Of a stretch of DNA of 64,000 nt, positions 13,324-23,086 are shown piece by piece; position 1 is the stretch's first letter, and every line of letters begins with the position of its first letter. Position numbers and translations under genes: made by a program. Below the pieces are notes generated by a model. That model was given only the letters and a program-made list of their open reading frames with translations, was not told the origin of the DNA and ran no database searches. The DNA is from Faecalibacterium prausnitzii (GTDB taxonomy: Bacteria > Bacillota > Clostridia > Oscillospirales > Ruminococcaceae), in contig NZ_PRLE01000007.1 in the NCBI RefSeq assembly GCF_003287495.1, positions 1 to 64,000 of the forward strand, written 5' to 3'.

Positions 13324-13362
13324 ACGCCTTTGTCCCCTACGGTTCGTAAGAGACAAAGGCGT
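13324..13362 (-). terminator. Conditional terminator of the T-box leader
   Basis: A stem of about 11 bp (acgcctttgtc / gacaaaggcgt) is followed on the minus strand by TTTTTG. It would compete with an antiterminator formed by the T-box core. Confidence 0.85.
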
Positions 13363-13612
13363 ATAAACTCCTCTGCGGTACCACTCTTATTGCCGGTGCA
13401 AAGCCCGGCCCCTCAGTGCGCATCCAACAATGCGCGGCCCGTGATAACGGGGGCCTGCCGTTCCCGCTTACTGGGGCGCATACACCGCCCATTCAGCCGG
13501 AAAGCTCGGAGAGGATCTTCCCACGGACGCCCTGCACTGCCTTGCACCATCCGGCAGCTCTCTGCAGCATTCTTTCCGGGTACTCTTTCTCGTCATAGCC
13601 GAATATTTCACT
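13324..13612 (-). promoter_or_regulatory. T-box riboswitch controlling the BASS transporter
   Basis: On the minus strand the leader shows a stem I with GACGAGAAAGAGTA and AGAGAGCTGCCGG...GGTGCAAG. The T-box core AGAGTGGTACCGC (13375-13387) comes next, then a terminator hairpin with arms acgcctttgtc / gacaaaggcgt and a T-run (13324-13362). By the usual AGUA/GAA loop pattern the specifier codon would be GAU (Asp). Shifting by one gives AUC (Ile), so the amino acid is not settled by eye. The T-box class itself is clear. Confidence 0.88.
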
Positions 13613-15649: not shown

Positions 15650-16417
15650 ATGGTACTTTATTTTACGGGAACCGGCAACAGCCGGTATCTGGCGCGGCGC
15701 ATTGCCGAAAGGCTGGAGATGCCGCTTTGCGACCTGAACGCCTGCATCAAGGCAGGGGATACCGCCCCGGTGCAGACCGGGCGGGACGTGGTGCTGGTGA
15801 CGCCTACCTACGCATGGCGCATCCCCCGGGTGGTGTCCGAGTGGCTGGGCAAGACCGCGCTGACCGGGGCAGAGCGCATCTGGTTTGTGATGGATTGCGG
15901 CAGCGAGATCGGCAATGCGGCAGGCTATAACCGGCAGCTTGCAGCACAAAAGCAGCTGCAGTACATGGGCACAGCCCAGATCATCATGCCGGAAAACTAC
16001 ATTGCCATGTTCAATGCACCCCAAAAAGAGCAGGCACGGAGCATCGTGGAGCAGGCAGAGCCAGCACTTCAGAGAGTGCTGGCGCAGCTCAAAGCCGGGC
16101 AGGAATTTCCCCCGCCGAGAGACAACCTCTACGACCGCCTTATGAGCGGCCCGGTGAACCCGGTGTTCTATCGCTTTTTTGTAAAAGCCGATGCTTTCCG
16201 GGCAACGGATGCCTGCATCGGCTGCGGTAAGTGCGTGGAGTTGTGCCCTTTGAACAACATCCGTCTGGAAAACGGCAAACCGGTCTGGGGCCAAAACTGC
16301 ACCCACTGCATGGCCTGCATCTGCTATTGCCCCAAAGAAGCCATCGAGTACGGCAAAAAGAGCAAAGGCAAGCCCCGGTATCACTTTGAAGCACTGGAAA
16401 AGCAGCAGGACGTATGA
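15650..16417 (+). CDS. EFR1-type ferredoxin (flavodoxin-like domain plus two [4Fe-4S] clusters)
   Basis: The protein has 255 residues. The N-terminal flavodoxin-like fold begins MVLYFTGTGNSRYLARRIA, where TGTGNS binds the FMN phosphate. Residues about 190-235 carry two CxxCxxCxxxCP clusters: CIGCGKCVELCP and CTHCMACICYCP. The arrangement matches EFRODO/EFR1 family proteins of Clostridia, cytosolic electron carriers of uncertain partner. It lies between a Nudix gene and a hydrolase gene, all on the plus strand, with gaps of 61 and 34 bp. Confidence 0.9.
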   Translation: MVLYFTGTGNSRYLARRIAERLEMPLCDLNACIKAGDTAPVQTGRDVVLVTPTYAWRIPRVVSEWLGKTALTGAERIWFVMDCGSEIGNAAGYNRQLAAQKQLQYMGTAQIIMPENYIAMFNAPQKEQARSIVEQAEPALQRVLAQLKAGQEFPPPRDNLYDRLMSGPVNPVFYRFFVKADAFRATDACIGCGKCVELCPLNNIRLENGKPVWGQNCTHCMACICYCPKEAIEYGKKSKGKPRYHFEALEKQQDV

Positions 16418-18396: not shown

Positions 18397-19296
18397 TCAG
18401 ATGAATCGGCAAAAGCCCAGCCAGCAGCCCAGCAGGAAGAAGAGCAACCCTTTACCCAGCACCGGCAGCCATAGATGCTTGCACAAGGTGGTATCCCACC
18501 GGTGGATGTTCTGCTTGGGGCAGGTGCCAACGCAGGCTTCACAGGCGATGCATTCCGCGCTGCGCAGGCTGGTTTCCTCCAGCTTCAGGCACACCGGGCA
18601 CTGCTGTTTACAGGCATTGCAGTCCGGGATGCAGCCGTCGCTCTTCCGGTGCAGCCGCGCAAATGGCAGCACCGGCAGCAGGGCAAACACCGCTCCCATG
18701 GGGCAGAGGAACTGACAGAAGAACCGGGGCTGCACCGCCATACCCAGCAAAATGAGCACAAGCAGCCCGATGCCCACACCAAAGCCCTCCGGCGGCAGAT
18801 GCAGAGCCGTCAGGCGGGAAAACACCTCCCACGGGCTTGCGCCGGTCAGCATCTTTTCCTGCCGGGTCACATACAGTGCTACCAGCCATGCCAGCAGCAG
18901 ATATTTGACCTTCTGCCCCAAAAGCACCGCCCGCTCCGGCAGACGGAGCTGCTTTTTGCGGTGGAACAGCTTTTTCTGAATAAGCCCGGAAAGCGCCCAG
19001 ACGGCATCGCCCAAGCTGCCGAAAGCACAGGCGTACCCACAGAAAAAACGGTCGAAAAGCAGGGTGAAGCCGCACAGCCCCAGCAGGGAAAGTGTGAAGC
19101 TGTCCACAGAGAGCACCTCGCCTGCACCGATGTGCAGAAAGATCTGTTTTACCCCGGAAAACCCGGCCACGAATGCGCCCGGCATGGACACAAAGAAGAA
19201 CAACTGCACCCCGGTGCGCAGCCATGTACGGCGCTTTTTGTCCCGCTGACGCTGCTGCGCCGCTGTTAAAGGCTTTGCCTGCGTTTTTTCCATCAT
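18397..19296 (-). CDS. NapH/NosR-like membrane polyferredoxin
   Basis: The protein has 299 residues. About five transmembrane helices (from about residues 29, 63, 130, 175 and 275) surround the paired NapH-type motifs FFCGYACAFGSLGD and FFCQFLCPMGAVF. A soluble loop (about 212-260) binds two [4Fe-4S] clusters: CIPDCNACKQQCP and CIACEACVGTCP. Proteins of this type pass electrons from the cytoplasm or quinones across the membrane to covalent flavins. It is the last gene of a four-gene minus-strand operon, overlapping the FMN-binding gene by 4 bp. Confidence 0.88.
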   Translation of the reverse strand: MMEKTQAKPLTAAQQRQRDKKRRTWLRTGVQLFFFVSMPGAFVAGFSGVKQIFLHIGAGEVLSVDSFTLSLLGLCGFTLLFDRFFCGYACAFGSLGDAVWALSGLIQKKLFHRKKQLRLPERAVLLGQKVKYLLLAWLVALYVTRQEKMLTGASPWEVFSRLTALHLPPEGFGVGIGLLVLILLGMAVQPRFFCQFLCPMGAVFALLPVLPFARLHRKSDGCIPDCNACKQQCPVCLKLEETSLRSAECIACEACVGTCPKQNIHRWDTTLCKHLWLPVLGKGLLFFLLGCWLGFCRFI

Positions 19297-19751
19297 CCTG
19301 CCGCCTTTCCCAGTGCGTTCTCTACCGCACCGATCAGTCCTTCTGCCGTGAGGGTGGCGCCGGAAACGGTATCCACCTCAGCAGACTGCACTGCCAGCAT
19401 CTCGTCCAGCAAAGGCAGCGCCTGCTTATAGTAGGGCTTATCCTCGCCGGAAGCATCCAGCACCGCAATATCGGTCATTTTTCCGTTCTGGATCGTCACC
19501 GACACCCGAATGACATCGCCAAAACCATAGGCGCTGCCCTCATAGATGCCGTCCCGGTAGCCGCTCTGCTCTGCCTGTGCTGCGCTCTGCGCCTGCAAAA
19601 CGGAAGCATTGTAGGCTTCCACTTCGGCAATTTCCTGCTCGCGCTGGCTTACCGCTGCCGCCCGGGTCAGCGCCACCTGCTGGTATTGCCACAGTACCCC
19701 CAAAATTAGCAGCAGGTTCACCGCCCGGAGGAGAAAATTTTTGTATTTCAT
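19293..19751 (-). CDS. Small membrane-anchored FMN-binding protein
   Basis: The protein has 152 residues: an N-terminal signal anchor (residues about 7-21, LLRAVNLLLILGVLW), a short coiled linker, then an FMN_bind domain (about 65-145). The covalent flavin site is DTVSGATLT, with T123 expected to carry FMN through ApbE. The domain would sit outside the membrane. ATG and stop overlap on both sides (4 bp each), so translation is coupled to its neighbours. No apbE gene is in the window. Confidence 0.88.
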   Translation of the reverse strand: MKYKNFLLRAVNLLLILGVLWQYQQVALTRAAAVSQREQEIAEVEAYNASVLQAQSAAQAEQSGYRDGIYEGSAYGFGDVIRVSVTIQNGKMTDIAVLDASGEDKPYYKQALPLLDEMLAVQSAEVDTVSGATLTAEGLIGAVENALGKAAG

Positions 19752-20857
19752 TCTGCTGCTCCTTCCGTTTCAGGTTCAATCCCGGTCTCTTCCGGCGGCA
19801 GTGCCGGCTCGGATGTCGGCAGCACTTCCTCAGAAGATGCCGGTTCCGGTTCAGAGGATGCCGGTGCATCTGCCGGGAAAAGCTGCTGCCATACTTCCTT
19901 GAGCCACACGGGAACGGCGCTCTTTTCCTCCGGCTGCACCACCTCCACGGTGGGCGCGGTGACCGGCGTTTCCCCGGGCTCTGCTGCTTCAGACAGTGCG
20001 GTTTCCTCTGCCGTCTCTTCCGATGCAGTCTGCTCCGGAGCGGTTTTCTCTGCCGGGGCAACAGCGGCCTTTGCCAGTGCCAGCTTGACTGCGTTCAGAA
20101 TTCCGGTGGAGGAGTAGGTGGCACCGGAAACAGTATCCACGTTGGGGCTTTGTCCCTCCAGAATGGCGGGGATGACCTGTTTTGCCCGGGAGAGATATTC
20201 CTCCTCGTCCTCGGCGCTCAGGATCGTGATATCGGTAATTTTATCCTCTGTCACCGTGACCTGCACTGTGATCTGCCCCTCAAAGCCCGTGGCTTCGGCA
20301 GTGTAGATGCCGTCCAAGTAGATGGAGGGAGCCGTAAATTCCTCCACCACAAGCGTTGCAGCGGGCTTTGGCTGGGGCGGCAGGGGATTGTTGACCACCT
20401 CGCCGGTCAGGGCGTTCTGCACTGCGCCCAGAATGCCCCGGCTGGTGTAGGTGGCCTCGGAAATGGCATCCACCTCCCAGCTCTGAGCCTCCACCACGGT
20501 GGTCAAAAGCCGCTTGGCACGCCGCAGAAACTGCTTGGTCTCGTGGGATGCGTCCAAGATCTCCACCTCCGTGATGCTGCCGTTTTCCATGGTGACCTGT
20601 ACTCGGACGGCACCGCCGTAGCCCCGGGAAGAGCCGACGTAAACGCCGTCGGCATAGGGCAGCTTGGGCAGGGTTTCTTTCTCCGCTTCGGAGGAGGCGG
20701 CTTCCACAGGCTGCTCCACCACGGTTGTCAGCTTTTCCGGCACGGCGGCCAGCACCGGAACGGTGCGGGGCAGGGCAAAAAGTACAGCTGCCGCTACCGC
20801 CACCGTCGGGAGCAGCTGCACCAGCGGCAGCAGGGTATGGCATCGTTTTTTGTTCAT
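19748..20857 (-). CDS. Membrane-anchored protein with two FMN-binding domains and an acidic Pro/Glu/Ser tail
   Basis: The protein has 369 residues. ATG 20857 lies 7 bp after aggagg; the frame's GTG at 20875 precedes that site. A signal anchor spans residues about 11-30. FMN_bind domain 1 (about 66-150) ends in DAISEATYTSRG, where the usual SGAT is SEAT. Domain 2 (about 178-262) has a regular DTVSGATYSSTG with T247 as the flavin acceptor. Residues 270-369 are a low-complexity Pro/Glu/Ala/Ser tail, probably a wall-spanning spacer. It is the second gene of the operon and was probably formed by duplication of an FMN domain. Confidence 0.85.
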   Translation of the reverse strand: MNKKRCHTLLPLVQLLPTVAVAAAVLFALPRTVPVLAAVPEKLTTVVEQPVEAASSEAEKETLPKLPYADGVYVGSSRGYGGAVRVQVTMENGSITEVEILDASHETKQFLRRAKRLLTTVVEAQSWEVDAISEATYTSRGILGAVQNALTGEVVNNPLPPQPKPAATLVVEEFTAPSIYLDGIYTAEATGFEGQITVQVTVTEDKITDITILSAEDEEEYLSRAKQVIPAILEGQSPNVDTVSGATYSSTGILNAVKLALAKAAVAPAEKTAPEQTASEETAEETALSEAAEPGETPVTAPTVEVVQPEEKSAVPVWLKEVWQQLFPADAPASSEPEPASSEEVLPTSEPALPPEETGIEPETEGAAE

Positions 20858-20957
20858 TCCAACTCCTCCTGACACGGAAAAGCAAGGCCGCCTGATGCCA
20901 AGCGACCTTGCCGTTTTGTGCTATATTTTACAATAAATTAGGCAGTTTCCCGTGCAT

Positions 20958-21794
20958 TCACAGCGCCACATTGACCGGCAGGACATACACGCCGTCGGCG
21001 GCGTAGAAGGTGATCTGAGTAATCGTCTTGCCGATGATGGATGCAAAGTAAGGATCATCGGCATTGAAGCCCAGCTTGGTACCATGCCAGATGTTGGTCA
21101 CATGATGCAGGCCGTACTCACTGCCATCGGCGGTGGTCAGAACTACGCCGTAGACCTTGTTGGCCTTGTAGTCCAGATCAAAACCGGAGAGCTTCATCTC
21201 GTAGGTGGCGTGGTGACCGTTGGGATTCAGCTCCACAGTGGTGCCCTCTACGGTGGTCTCGGTGGCGTGGACCTTGCCAAACTCCCACTTGCCGCTCAGC
21301 AGGTTATACCATGCGGTGATGTAGTAGGCAGGGGTCTCACTGAGTTTGTAGTAAGCGTAGCTCTCGTTCTCAAACAAGGCATCTACGCCGGTGTAGGTGG
21401 TGGTGGATTCCTTGCCCTTCAGGGTAACGGTAATGTCGTAGCTGTCGGCATCGGTGACCTGCTTTGCGTTCTTCAGCGCCCACGGGGTCAGCACCTTGAC
21501 CGGGAAGGAAACGCCGGTGATGTCGGTGCCATCTGCGTTGACGTGGTAGGAACCGGCGGCAAGGTTGCCTGCACGGGTCTTGTTCTTGGTGGCGCTGGTC
21601 ACAGCGTCGATCTCAGATGCGTTGTCCACACCGGCAGCCTTGTAGAAGTCGGCGTAGGGGATGTTCATCTGGACATAGCTGGAGGTCAGGCCGTTTTCCT
21701 GTTCCACCTCTTCCGCAGCGAAGGCCGGGACTGCCACAGCGCATACCAGCATAGCGGTCGCAAGTGCACCTGCAAATACTTTTTTCAATCTCAT
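20958..21794 (-). CDS. Secreted PBP-Tp47 C-domain-like protein
   Basis: The protein has 278 residues with a cleavable signal peptide (MRLKKVFAGALATAMLVCA, cut after AFA near residue 26). The body resembles the C-domain of the treponemal Tp47 protein: NIPYADFYKAAG, EIDAVTSATKNKT, GSYHVNADG, FPVKV. Its role in Clostridia is not known. The segment D63-A-V-T-S-A-T69 looks like the covalent flavin site of FMN_bind proteins. It is the first gene of the operon, 35 bp downstream of an iron-box-like palindrome. Confidence 0.7.
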   Translation of the reverse strand: MRLKKVFAGALATAMLVCAVAVPAFAAEEVEQENGLTSSYVQMNIPYADFYKAAGVDNASEIDAVTSATKNKTRAGNLAAGSYHVNADGTDITGVSFPVKVLTPWALKNAKQVTDADSYDITVTLKGKESTTTYTGVDALFENESYAYYKLSETPAYYITAWYNLLSGKWEFGKVHATETTVEGTTVELNPNGHHATYEMKLSGFDLDYKANKVYGVVLTTADGSEYGLHHVTNIWHGTKLGFNADDPYFASIIGKTITQITFYAADGVYVLPVNVAL

Positions 21795-21828
21795 GATAAC
21801 ACACCTCTATCTCAGTTTTGAAAAAACA

Positions 21829-21844
21829 GTTAGCTTTACCTAAC
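21829..21844 (-). promoter_or_regulatory. DtxR/IdeR-like iron box upstream of the electron transfer operon
   Basis: The 16-bp palindrome gttagctttacctaac (arms GTTAG / CTAAC) resembles DtxR/IdeR/MntR sites of the TTAGG...CCTAA type. An identical copy is at 22361-22376. It sits 35 bp before the Tp47-like ATG, overlapping or adjoining the promoter, so repression by a metal-loaded regulator is likely. The regulator is not in the window. Confidence 0.65.
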
Positions 21845-22047
21845 AATTGATGCAAAAAAATGCAGGGGCAAAACCCCTCAGATGGTTAGGCAAAACAAAT
21901 TCGCGAACTAAAAATAGCACTCCCACTGGGCGTTGTCAAGCAGAAACCGGCAAGTTTGCAGAGGTGAACTTTTCGGTGCAGGAAACGATCTGCATCCGCT
22001 ATCTCGCAAAGTCCTTGACCTTTTTGCCGGAGCGCAGGATTCTGGCA

Positions 22048-22227
22048 GCAGGCATCGTGGTGCCCGCGTTGCCCTATCTGCTCAGCTTTGCTGCCGGAGC
22101 CATGCTGTATGTCGTGGCGGAGGAACGGATCCCCGAAATGTCGCAGAGGCAGCACTCCAACGTTGGCACGGTATTTTTCGCGGTGGGCTTCAGCGTGATG
22201 ATGGTGCTGGATGTGGCACTGGGGTGA
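22048..22227 (+). pseudogene. C-terminal stub of a ZIP family metal transporter
   Basis: The frame reads AGIVVPALPYLLSFAAGAML, then EERIPEMSQRQHSNVGT and ends VMMVLDVALG. These are the last helices of ZIP (ZupT-like) transporters, including the conserved Glu/Glu and His. The N-terminal two thirds of the protein is missing and the upstream frame is unrelated. Its position between two iron boxes suggests it once belonged to a metal-regulated gene. Confidence 0.8.
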
Positions 22228-22286
22228 CGGTTGGGGGTTCCCGAAAGCGAAATCTCTTTCGGAATCTCCGAAAATGCCTAAACTCC

Positions 22287-22315
22287 TTGACAGAGGCAAC
22301 GGCAGGGCGTATTAT
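22287..22315 (+). promoter_or_regulatory. Consensus promoter upstream of iron box 2
   Basis: TTGACA (22287-22292) and TATTAT (22310-22315) with a 17-bp spacer. Transcription would start near 22322, pass a small ccgc...gcgg hairpin with TTTTT (about 22330-22348), and then cross the iron box. Confidence 0.65.
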
Positions 22316-22360
22316 TTTGGCAGAAGGACCGCTGAGAGGCGGCTTTTTATAGAACAGAAA

Positions 22361-22376
22361 GTTAGCTTTACCTAAC
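22361..22376 (+). promoter_or_regulatory. DtxR/IdeR-like iron box upstream of the methyltransferase pair
   Basis: The sequence gttagctttacctaac is identical over all 16 bp to the site at 21829-21844. It lies 98 bp before the methyltransferase start. Confidence 0.65.
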
Positions 22377-22474
22377 TTGCAGCACGAGGAATTGCTGGCC
22401 TGTCATCCGGTGCAGTGGGCGCATCTGGTAAAAAGCATTGCATTGTGAACGGTAAACAGAAAGAGGGAGGCATT

Positions 22475-23086
22475 ATGTCCTTTTTTGAAAACACCCGAAA
22501 GCCCGTAGGACTTGGCGGGAAGATCATGGTTGCTATGATGAACTTTGGACACAGCGCAATGGCAGAATGGGGGCTACGTTTTTTACAGCCTGCCCCGGAT
22601 GCCATGGTGCTGGACTGCGGCTGCGGCGGTGGAGCGAACATGAAAACGCTGTTGAAACTGTGCCCCAACGGCAAGGTGCAGGGCATCGACTACTCAGCCG
22701 TCAGCGTGGAAAAAGCGCGAAAAGTCAATGCCGGAGCCATTGCGGCAGGACGGTGTACCGTGCAACAGGCAAGTGTGGCAGAACTGCCGTTTGAGGCGGA
22801 GCAGTTTGATGTGGTGACTGCCTTTGAAACGGTCTACTTCTGGCCGGAGCTTGCACAGAATTTCAGAGAGGTTTATCGGGTGCTGAAACCCGGCGGAATC
22901 TTTTTTATCTGTAACGAAGCAAACGGCGAAACGACAAAAGACGATAAATGGACGCAGATCATCGATGGCATGGCCATCTATACGGATACTGCACTGAAAG
23001 AGTATCTGGAACAAGCAGGATTTTGTCAGATCCAAAGCCACAAAAATAAAAAGGGCTGGCTTTGCGTTACGGCGCAAAAGCGGTGA
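22475..23086 (+). CDS. Class I SAM-dependent methyltransferase
   Basis: The protein has 203 residues. ATG 22475 follows agaggga; the frame opens at 22415 but through the leader. Motif I is VLDCGCGGGANMKTLL, the acidic loop is GIDYSAVSVEKA, and a later motif is FDVVTAFETVYFWPEL, with LKPGGIFFICNE after it. This is the ubiE/Methyltransf_11 type. The substrate is unknown. It is paired with another methyltransferase gene 88 bp downstream under a putative iron box, which hints at metallophore or thiol chemistry, but nothing in the sequence proves this. Confidence 0.88.
   Translation: MSFFENTRKPVGLGGKIMVAMMNFGHSAMAEWGLRFLQPAPDAMVLDCGCGGGANMKTLLKLCPNGKVQGIDYSAVSVEKARKVNAGAIAAGRCTVQQASVAELPFEAEQFDVVTAFETVYFWPELAQNFREVYRVLKPGGIFFICNEANGETTKDDKWTQIIDGMAIYTDTALKEYLEQAGFCQIQSHKNKKGWLCVTAQKR

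Follow-up and report, generated by a model that had tools for sequence, protein, structure and literature searches.

A predicted iron-controlled operon for flavin-based electron transfer at the cell surface, headed by a distant Tp47 relative, in Faecalibacterium prausnitzii

The window analysed here, 64,000 nucleotides of Faecalibacterium prausnitzii DNA (C17:1-64000, from a genome of 2.68 Mb in 19 contigs), carries an operon encoding a secreted Tp47-like protein (hereafter TP), two proteins with FMN_bind domains (FMN2 and FMN1) and a NapH-like membrane iron-sulfur protein, all behind a palindromic iron box. We read the operon, with about even confidence, as a surface flavin relay induced by iron starvation, which would reduce iron and so set it free at the cell surface, the source being ferric iron or possibly the iron of haem or haemoproteins. 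A first-pass annotation, made from the letters of the window, had proposed an iron-box-controlled operon for flavin-based extracytoplasmic electron transfer; its observation is confirmed here and its interpretation partly supported. Faecalibacterium employs flavins to pass electrons to the outside of the cell.

The gene set lies on the minus strand as first described, which was confirmed from the sequence. TP (20958-21794) comes first and is a protein of 278 amino acids with a signal peptide and the sequence DAVTSAT at residues 63-69. It is followed by FMN2 (19748-20857), which is exported and has, besides two FMN_bind domains (DAISEAT and DTVSGAT), a long tail rich in Glu, Pro and Ser (the start was taken at an ATG; the open-reading-frame list begins the gene at a GTG, 20875), by FMN1 (19293-19751), 152 amino acids long with a hydrophobic N-terminus and a single FMN_bind domain (DTVSGAT), and by the gene of the NapH-like protein (18397-19296), which has 299 amino acids and Cys clusters at residues 75-90, 194-198, 222-236 and 249-259. 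The four genes had been called coupled, and FMN2, FMN1 and the NapH-like gene are indeed joined by 4-nt overlaps, but TP stands about 100 nt upstream of this trio and is separated from it by a terminator-like inverted repeat followed by TTTT (20882-20911, minus strand), which was spotted by eye and is absent from the list of the computed terminator scan.

The NapH-like protein matches Fer4_5 at E 3e-11 (43 bits versus a cut-off of 22), placing it among proteins of the PF12801 type, and the NapH/MauN model at E 9e-18. With 65 versus 213 bits for TIGR02163 and 61 versus 234 bits for NF007013 it misses the NCBIfam cut-offs for NapH, and judged by these models the product is NapH-like, not NapH itself. 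Three FMN_bind (PF04205) domains score above cut-off within the operon, two in FMN2 and one in FMN1, and seven such domains are found in the whole genome; in a search of PDB sequences FMN2 resembles clostridial FMN domains of solved structure (8p2b and 8p2a). A genome search for ApbE, proposed earlier as a check, gave one gene, located on C14 and outside the operon cluster. The components needed to carry electrons outward to exposed flavins are present, as had been claimed. Scanning the operon with Rfam gave nothing at gathering score and a single chance-like match at E <= 1 in 21700-22500.

The iron box GTTAGCTTTACCTAAC is situated at 21829-21844, 34 bp upstream of the TP start codon, and a second, identical box is found at 22361-22376 ahead of a methyltransferase gene (22472-23086, plus strand). 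When exact copies of GTTAG-N6-CTAAC were counted, the genome contained 12 versus 1 for a control with the reversed pattern, and 31 genomes of the genus, including this one, summed to 226 versus 33, with varying counts in single genomes (10 versus 7 in G209, 10 versus 6 in G081 and 0 versus 0 in G214). Upstream of TP the arms of the box are invariant and the middle is variable in 12 aligned congener regions (from 12 of the 13 genomes with TP; L127 could not be placed). Two boxes each were found in this genome at a flavodoxin gene, at the gene for pyruvate formate-lyase (PFL; L016:8569 and 8853) and at a DUF3793 gene followed by two genes that we read as FeoA-like, by FeoB and by a DtxR-like gene, and one box each at a CbiQ/ABC/Trep_Strep transporter and at two ABC (ATP-binding cassette) exporters with a DtxR-family gene. 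Two more single boxes have an ambiguous target: the first belongs either to a gene for a heavy-metal-associated-domain protein or to a lipoprotein-like gene on the opposite side, the second stands at a gene, hydrolase-like in our reading, near a Peripla_BP_2/FecCD transporter. Since the box is enriched and precedes feo, flavodoxin, PFL and transport genes it carries the signature of an iron regulon and, being a palindrome above chance and ahead of iron genes, would look like the operator of an iron repressor of the DtxR/IdeR type. The iron control predicted at first is in this way better supported. A search of the open-access literature gave no work on a Faecalibacterium DtxR iron regulon.

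Some further genes near the boxes may be mentioned. The two boxes upstream of PFL suggest that pyruvate metabolism shifts under iron shortage. DUF3793 stands directly behind an iron box both before feo (L017:9121-9699) and before flavodoxin in another genus (L090:7801-8352) and is a candidate iron-starvation protein. A small methyltransferase (Methyltransf_11) is found by an iron box or its cluster in three genera (22472-23086 of the window, L090:9800-10585 and L110:945-1604). The 3'-end remnant of a ZIP-type metal transporter gene (22040-22227, plus strand) and a second ZIP-end remnant (L015:10156-10353) both adjoin an iron box, an intact ZIP gene adjoins TP in L083 and L084, and a homologue of the ZIP gene is intact beside TP in L095.

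TP itself gave no match in Pfam (E <= 0.01) or NCBIfam (E <= 1), none beyond chance among PDB sequences, and is matched by neither of the Pfam Tp47 families, PF14888 and PF14889. When the profile of the TP family was aligned to that of Tp47-type proteins with hhalign, the two were linked with Prob 97 and E 5e-11 over 228 columns with the motifs in register, a score to which the included signal peptides add. The earlier label of a Tp47-like secreted protein therefore holds at the level of profiles but not of direct database matches, and by this similarity TP is a distant relative within the wider Tp47 superfamily. A profile search of the PDB with the TP family returned only a plastocyanin at E 0.8, and among 32 candidates for the family in viral contigs none was confirmed.

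While TP is distant from Tp47, the 47-kDa lipoprotein of Treponema pallidum (PDB 1o75, PF14888, PF14889), a longer gene found in congeners, X, is a clear homologue. X sits ahead of FMN2 in seven of the ten congeners with FMN2-FMN1-NapH; the X proteins of L083 and L088 score 211-232 bits to PF14889 and PF14888, and that of L083 matches 1o75 at E 3e-16. X is absent from the window, G199 and G222, in all of which TP comes immediately before FMN2. In L083 a nearly identical sequence, containing a repeat like that at 20882-20911, follows on the 3' side of both TP and X, so a deletion of X would explain the TP-FMN2 junction of the window; that TP replaced X as the first gene suggests similar work for the two proteins. 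PF14889 was found in 1 of 295 genomes of an order sample and in 0 of 398 of a phylum sample, the latter scan being without signal anywhere. TP, X and Tp47 have the sequence DAV[ST]xAT in common. No redox role of Tp47 was met in the open-access literature searched, nor anything on Tp47 together with FMN binding.

To other genera the company of TP extends as follows. A family sample yielded homologues in 9 of its 197 genomes and a class sample in 8 of its 391 (this genome being in both; weak or contig-edge matches in G099, G1089 and G1009 were left out), and 13 loci outside the genus were read (L089-L095 and L110-L115, with L114 found through its Tp47 domain). An exact box lies ahead of the TP homologue or its operon in ten of them (L090, L092, L094, L095 and L110-L115); L089 has a box with one mismatch, L091 one with two mismatches and only before the ApbE gene, and L093 none. 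FMN_bind is found beside or within the TP homologue in 10 of the 13 (L089-L094, L110, L112, L114, L115), and ApbE was confirmed in seven (L089-L092, L094, L114, L115), the remaining six having been partly scanned and two of these being short contigs. The usual partner carries an FMN_bind tail, with Ferric_reduct above cut-off in L089 and L091, below it in L093, and not listed for the partners in L090, L092, L094 and L110. TP and an FMN_bind gene are divergent from FeoA/FeoB in L110, and other companions are NusG_II and Hpre_diP_synt_I genes (L092, L115) and flavodoxin with DUF3793 (L090). In L112 the TP homologue is fused to FMN_bind, and in L114 a single protein of 1335 residues has SLH, TP, haemoglobin-interacting domain (HID), Tp47 and FMN_bind parts. 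Of the 14 TP-family rows, 11 match the HID, as in Shr of Streptococcus pyogenes, at E <= 1, the strongest match reaching 4e-11; the NEAT domain was not listed. As the partners differ among genera, it appears to be the membrane module that changes, ferric-reductase-like in some and NapH-like here, while TP, the flavin domains and the iron box tend to stay. An iron-box cluster in L115 (5312-13604) has an SLH/Tp47/TP protein, an FMN_bind protein and a twin-arginine-like exported [FeFe]-hydrogenase-like protein with TatC adjoining, an outer hydrogenase that might feed flavins.

The operon is best read, from its gene content, as a variant of the NapH-like flavinylation systems, for which the survey counts 539 clusters with a PF12801 membrane iron-sulfur protein beside a separate FMN_bind gene (Meheust et al. 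2021, PMC8238504). The pairing is the same, but the window operon is without a respiratory enzyme, has its ApbE elsewhere, begins with a Tp47-like gene and has an iron box; neither 'penicillin' nor 'Faecalibacterium' occurs in the text of the survey. MsrQ-like or ferric-reductase-like flavinylation systems beside VIT1 are read there as assimilatory iron reductases (PMC8238504). These resemble the TP relatives of other genera with Ferric_reduct and FMN_bind in one protein, whereas the window has a NapH-like membrane module with TP as the surface partner, and VIT1 was not seen. A flavin extracellular electron transfer locus of the Listeria type is marked by genes for Ndh2, EetA/EetB and PplA together with quinone genes. 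Iron reduction or uptake as the purpose of the operon fits the predicted regulon and the ferric-reductase-like partner in some of the other genera.

When the flavinylation motifs were compared, the SGAT announced for the FMN_bind proteins was found in two of the three domains as canonical DTVSGAT, but the third, in FMN2, reads DAISEAT. The SEAT form is retained in nine of nine congeners examined, which suggests that Gly is not strict in this system, flavinylation of the SEAT domain itself being only possible. The survey writes the ApbE motif as [S/T]GA[S/T] (PMC8238504), and TP departs from it, as DAVTSAT has Ser in place of Gly. Across the 14 TP-family rows no variation is seen at D, V, the second S and T, and either A is conserved to 90% or more (the motif of L112 is DAVTSST); the motif of X, DAVSRAT, is invariant in five Tp47-type rows, of which three are close congeners. 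Gly is thus missing from 14 of 14 TP and 5 of 5 Tp47-type motifs, which weighs against flavinylation of TP. When six-frame open reading frames of at least 100 residues, taken from the window plus six stretches of its genome (171.5 kb, 107,281 residues), were scanned for D-x-x-[ST]-x-A-T, four occurrences were found, the three FMN_bind domains of the operon and TP. Two other ideas were given up: that the N-terminus of TP is a circularly permuted FMN_bind is unsupported, with only the motif aligning (13 and 11 columns, Prob 3 and 1), and the DAKTGAT of L112 belongs to a separate N-terminal FMN_bind domain and is not a canonical TP motif.

Because TP and the Tp47 homologues share the near-ApbE sequence DAV[ST]xAT they may be flavinylated, and known ApbE targets, DUF2271 and DUF3570, are likewise outside FMN_bind according to the same survey (PMC8238504). 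For TP in particular, the motif makes this a working hypothesis. A wider proposal, which we hold tentatively and at somewhat less than an even chance, is that Tp47-like proteins (TP, X and, by its sequence, Tp47) would be unrecognised ApbE substrates that carry flavin mononucleotide (FMN) on the last Thr of DAV[ST]xAT, within a fold distinct from FMN_bind. They would then form the outer end of the redox chain of an iron-starvation system, and their leaders would contain a terminator at which an iron repressor holds up polymerase.

The leader part of this proposal comes from the layout upstream of TP. In order, the leader consists of a promoter-like TTGACA-17-TATTTT (21911-21939, minus strand), which is kept upstream of TP in congeners, the remains of a first box, complete in 4 of the 12 aligned congener regions, a terminator-like hairpin followed by a T run (21864-21878, minus strand), the box and the start codon. 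The feo, flavodoxin and X leaders have the same order with different hairpins, those of the methyltransferase and hydrolase-like genes a like order without the first box, and in the CbiQ and ABC-exporter leaders (L018:8029-14955; C16:51028 and C16:53955) the box is centred in a long hairpin followed by T's. Leaders with promoter, optional box, hairpin with T run, box and gene were noted at 21829-21939 and 22287-22376 of the window and in L013, L015, L017, L083, L135, L137 and L141.

For scoring, 69 box sites from eight genomes were used, the 12 sites of this genome and those listed for seven congeners (the TP sites of G199 and G204 and the listed sites of G201, G203, G206 and G207 were left out). 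Among the sites listed, a hairpin with a T run ending 8-24 nt before the box was found in 41 of 69 in the direction of the gene versus 17 of 69 in the opposite direction, and after grouping by alike upstream sequence in 23 of 46 groups versus 11 of 46, groups which still hold same-gene leaders from different species; 40 dinucleotide-shuffled sets gave a mean of 4.8 and a maximum of 8 hairpin groups. In 12 of the 23 hairpin groups a promoter scoring 9 or more matches out of 12 lies further upstream, as against none in the opposite direction and 1.5 expected from mononucleotide shuffles. The range of 8-24 nt was picked after a first scan, in which a plain energy count was less lopsided (38 versus 24 of 69 at -7 kcal/mol), and gene direction was set by codon score, which is wrong or doubtful for some sites (e.g. 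L014, L018:8029 and L132:887) and was left uncorrected. This layout suggests repressor-assisted transcription termination, in which polymerase would run into the box-bound repressor at the point where its active site has come close to the T run. A precedent is YtgR of Chlamydia, an iron-dependent repressor proposed to halt elongating polymerase at an operator inside an operon (PMC6504234, PMC7755916); stopping of elongation by such a repressor is the likeness to the control proposed for the Faecalibacterium leaders. The blockage by YtgR was proposed without a specific RNA structure (PMC6504234), whereas many of the leaders here have a terminator-like hairpin immediately before the box.

Within the genus, TP is found in 13 of 31 genomes and the NapH gene (at least 72% identity) in 10 of 31, counts that are uncorrected for kinship, and 10 of 10 congeners with the NapH gene also carry TP. 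Among these ten, TP adjoins the redox set in five, directly in this genome, G199 and G222 and with X between in G211 and G221; G208 has a TP fragment on the contig of the redox set besides TP elsewhere. Every named record that has a close TP gene belongs to Faecalibacterium, F. prausnitzii and F. hattorii among them, and in the record of F. prausnitzii ATCC 27768 TP is followed by a cyclase gene, with no redox genes intervening.

Taken as an iron-acquiring relay, the operon would work as follows. With iron present, a DtxR-type repressor on GTTAG-N6-CTAAC would block initiation and/or stop polymerase at the leader hairpin, and with iron absent it would leave the box. ApbE would attach FMN to FMN1 and FMN2, and the NapH-like protein would take electrons from a cytosolic donor (candidates are the iron-regulated flavodoxin and ferredoxin) across the membrane to FMN1, from where they would pass to FMN2 and then to TP, facing or binding the iron source. 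Ferrous iron would be taken up by FeoB, whose gene belongs to this regulon.

The gene parts, the box with its genomic company, the ApbE gene and the company of TP in other genera were observed directly. Several points weigh against the relay: flavinylation, electron path, substrate and regulator are inferred; the operon itself is without an iron-uptake gene, the adjoining ZIP gene being only a remnant; the window TP has no HID in the scan at E <= 1, having lost it or never had it; and an AlphaFold2 model of it is of too low confidence to be used (pLDDT, the predicted local distance difference test, of 49.7, from six rows 94-98% alike), and with this model Foldseek gave nothing at E <= 0.001. 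Likewise, TP lies away from the redox set in five of the ten congeners (on other contigs in G205, G208 and G210, at about 1.3 Mb in G212 and about 10 kb in G223) and is found without NapH in three genomes (G198, G204 and G224), none of the three DtxR-family genes of the genome is singled out as regulator of the box (Fur was not searched), and boxes with one mismatch show no excess in the genome (28 versus 24 for the control), for which reason only exact sites were counted.

The same parts could instead serve respiration or redox balancing, with flavins handing excess electrons to soluble gut acceptors, and the iron control would then only reflect replacement of iron-rich routes. NapH-like flavin systems, where known, mostly serve respiratory oxidoreductases (PMC8238504), the box ahead of PFL and flavodoxin suggests a general electron-flow switch, and L115 has its exported [FeFe]-hydrogenase-like gene after an FMN_bind gene; however, the operon is without a terminal reductase gene, the relatives have HID and ferric-reductase-like domains and TP lies beside FeoAB in L110, and we consider this explanation rather unlikely. 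It seems less probable still that a flavin chain in the envelope merely spares iron, replacing an iron-rich chain under shortage as flavodoxin does for ferredoxin, with no gathering of iron: flavodoxin and PFL have the box in common and flavinylation has been proposed to pay in iron-poor places (PMC8238504), but the several iron-sulfur clusters needed by the NapH-like protein would make a poor saving, and boxes are also found near feo and an iron-type ABC transporter. That TP is a cell-wall or penicillin-binding protein merely on a shared iron-regulated transcript with the redox genes, as the match of its sister gene X to 1o75 and the penicillin-binding Tp47 families of Pfam and the frequent separation of TP from redox genes might suggest, is very improbable given homologues fused to FMN_bind (L112, L114), adjoining ApbE or with HID and the iron box before TP at every location in the 12 aligned regions.

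Two neighbouring features of the window may be added, a T-box leader at 13346-13605 on the minus strand (Rfam RF00230, 109 bits) and, a few genes from the operon, a protein with flavodoxin-like and 4Fe-4S ferredoxin parts (15650-16417), at which no box was seen.

If the reading of the operon as an iron-acquiring flavin relay is true, a major human gut commensal would have a reductive route of iron acquisition under iron control, and a surface family whose best-known relative is the 47-kDa lipoprotein of syphilis would gain a redox role. Tp47-like proteins would then form a third class of ApbE targets without FMN_bind, beside DUF2271 and DUF3570, and the layout of the leaders would give a straightforward setting in which to test repressor-assisted transcription termination.

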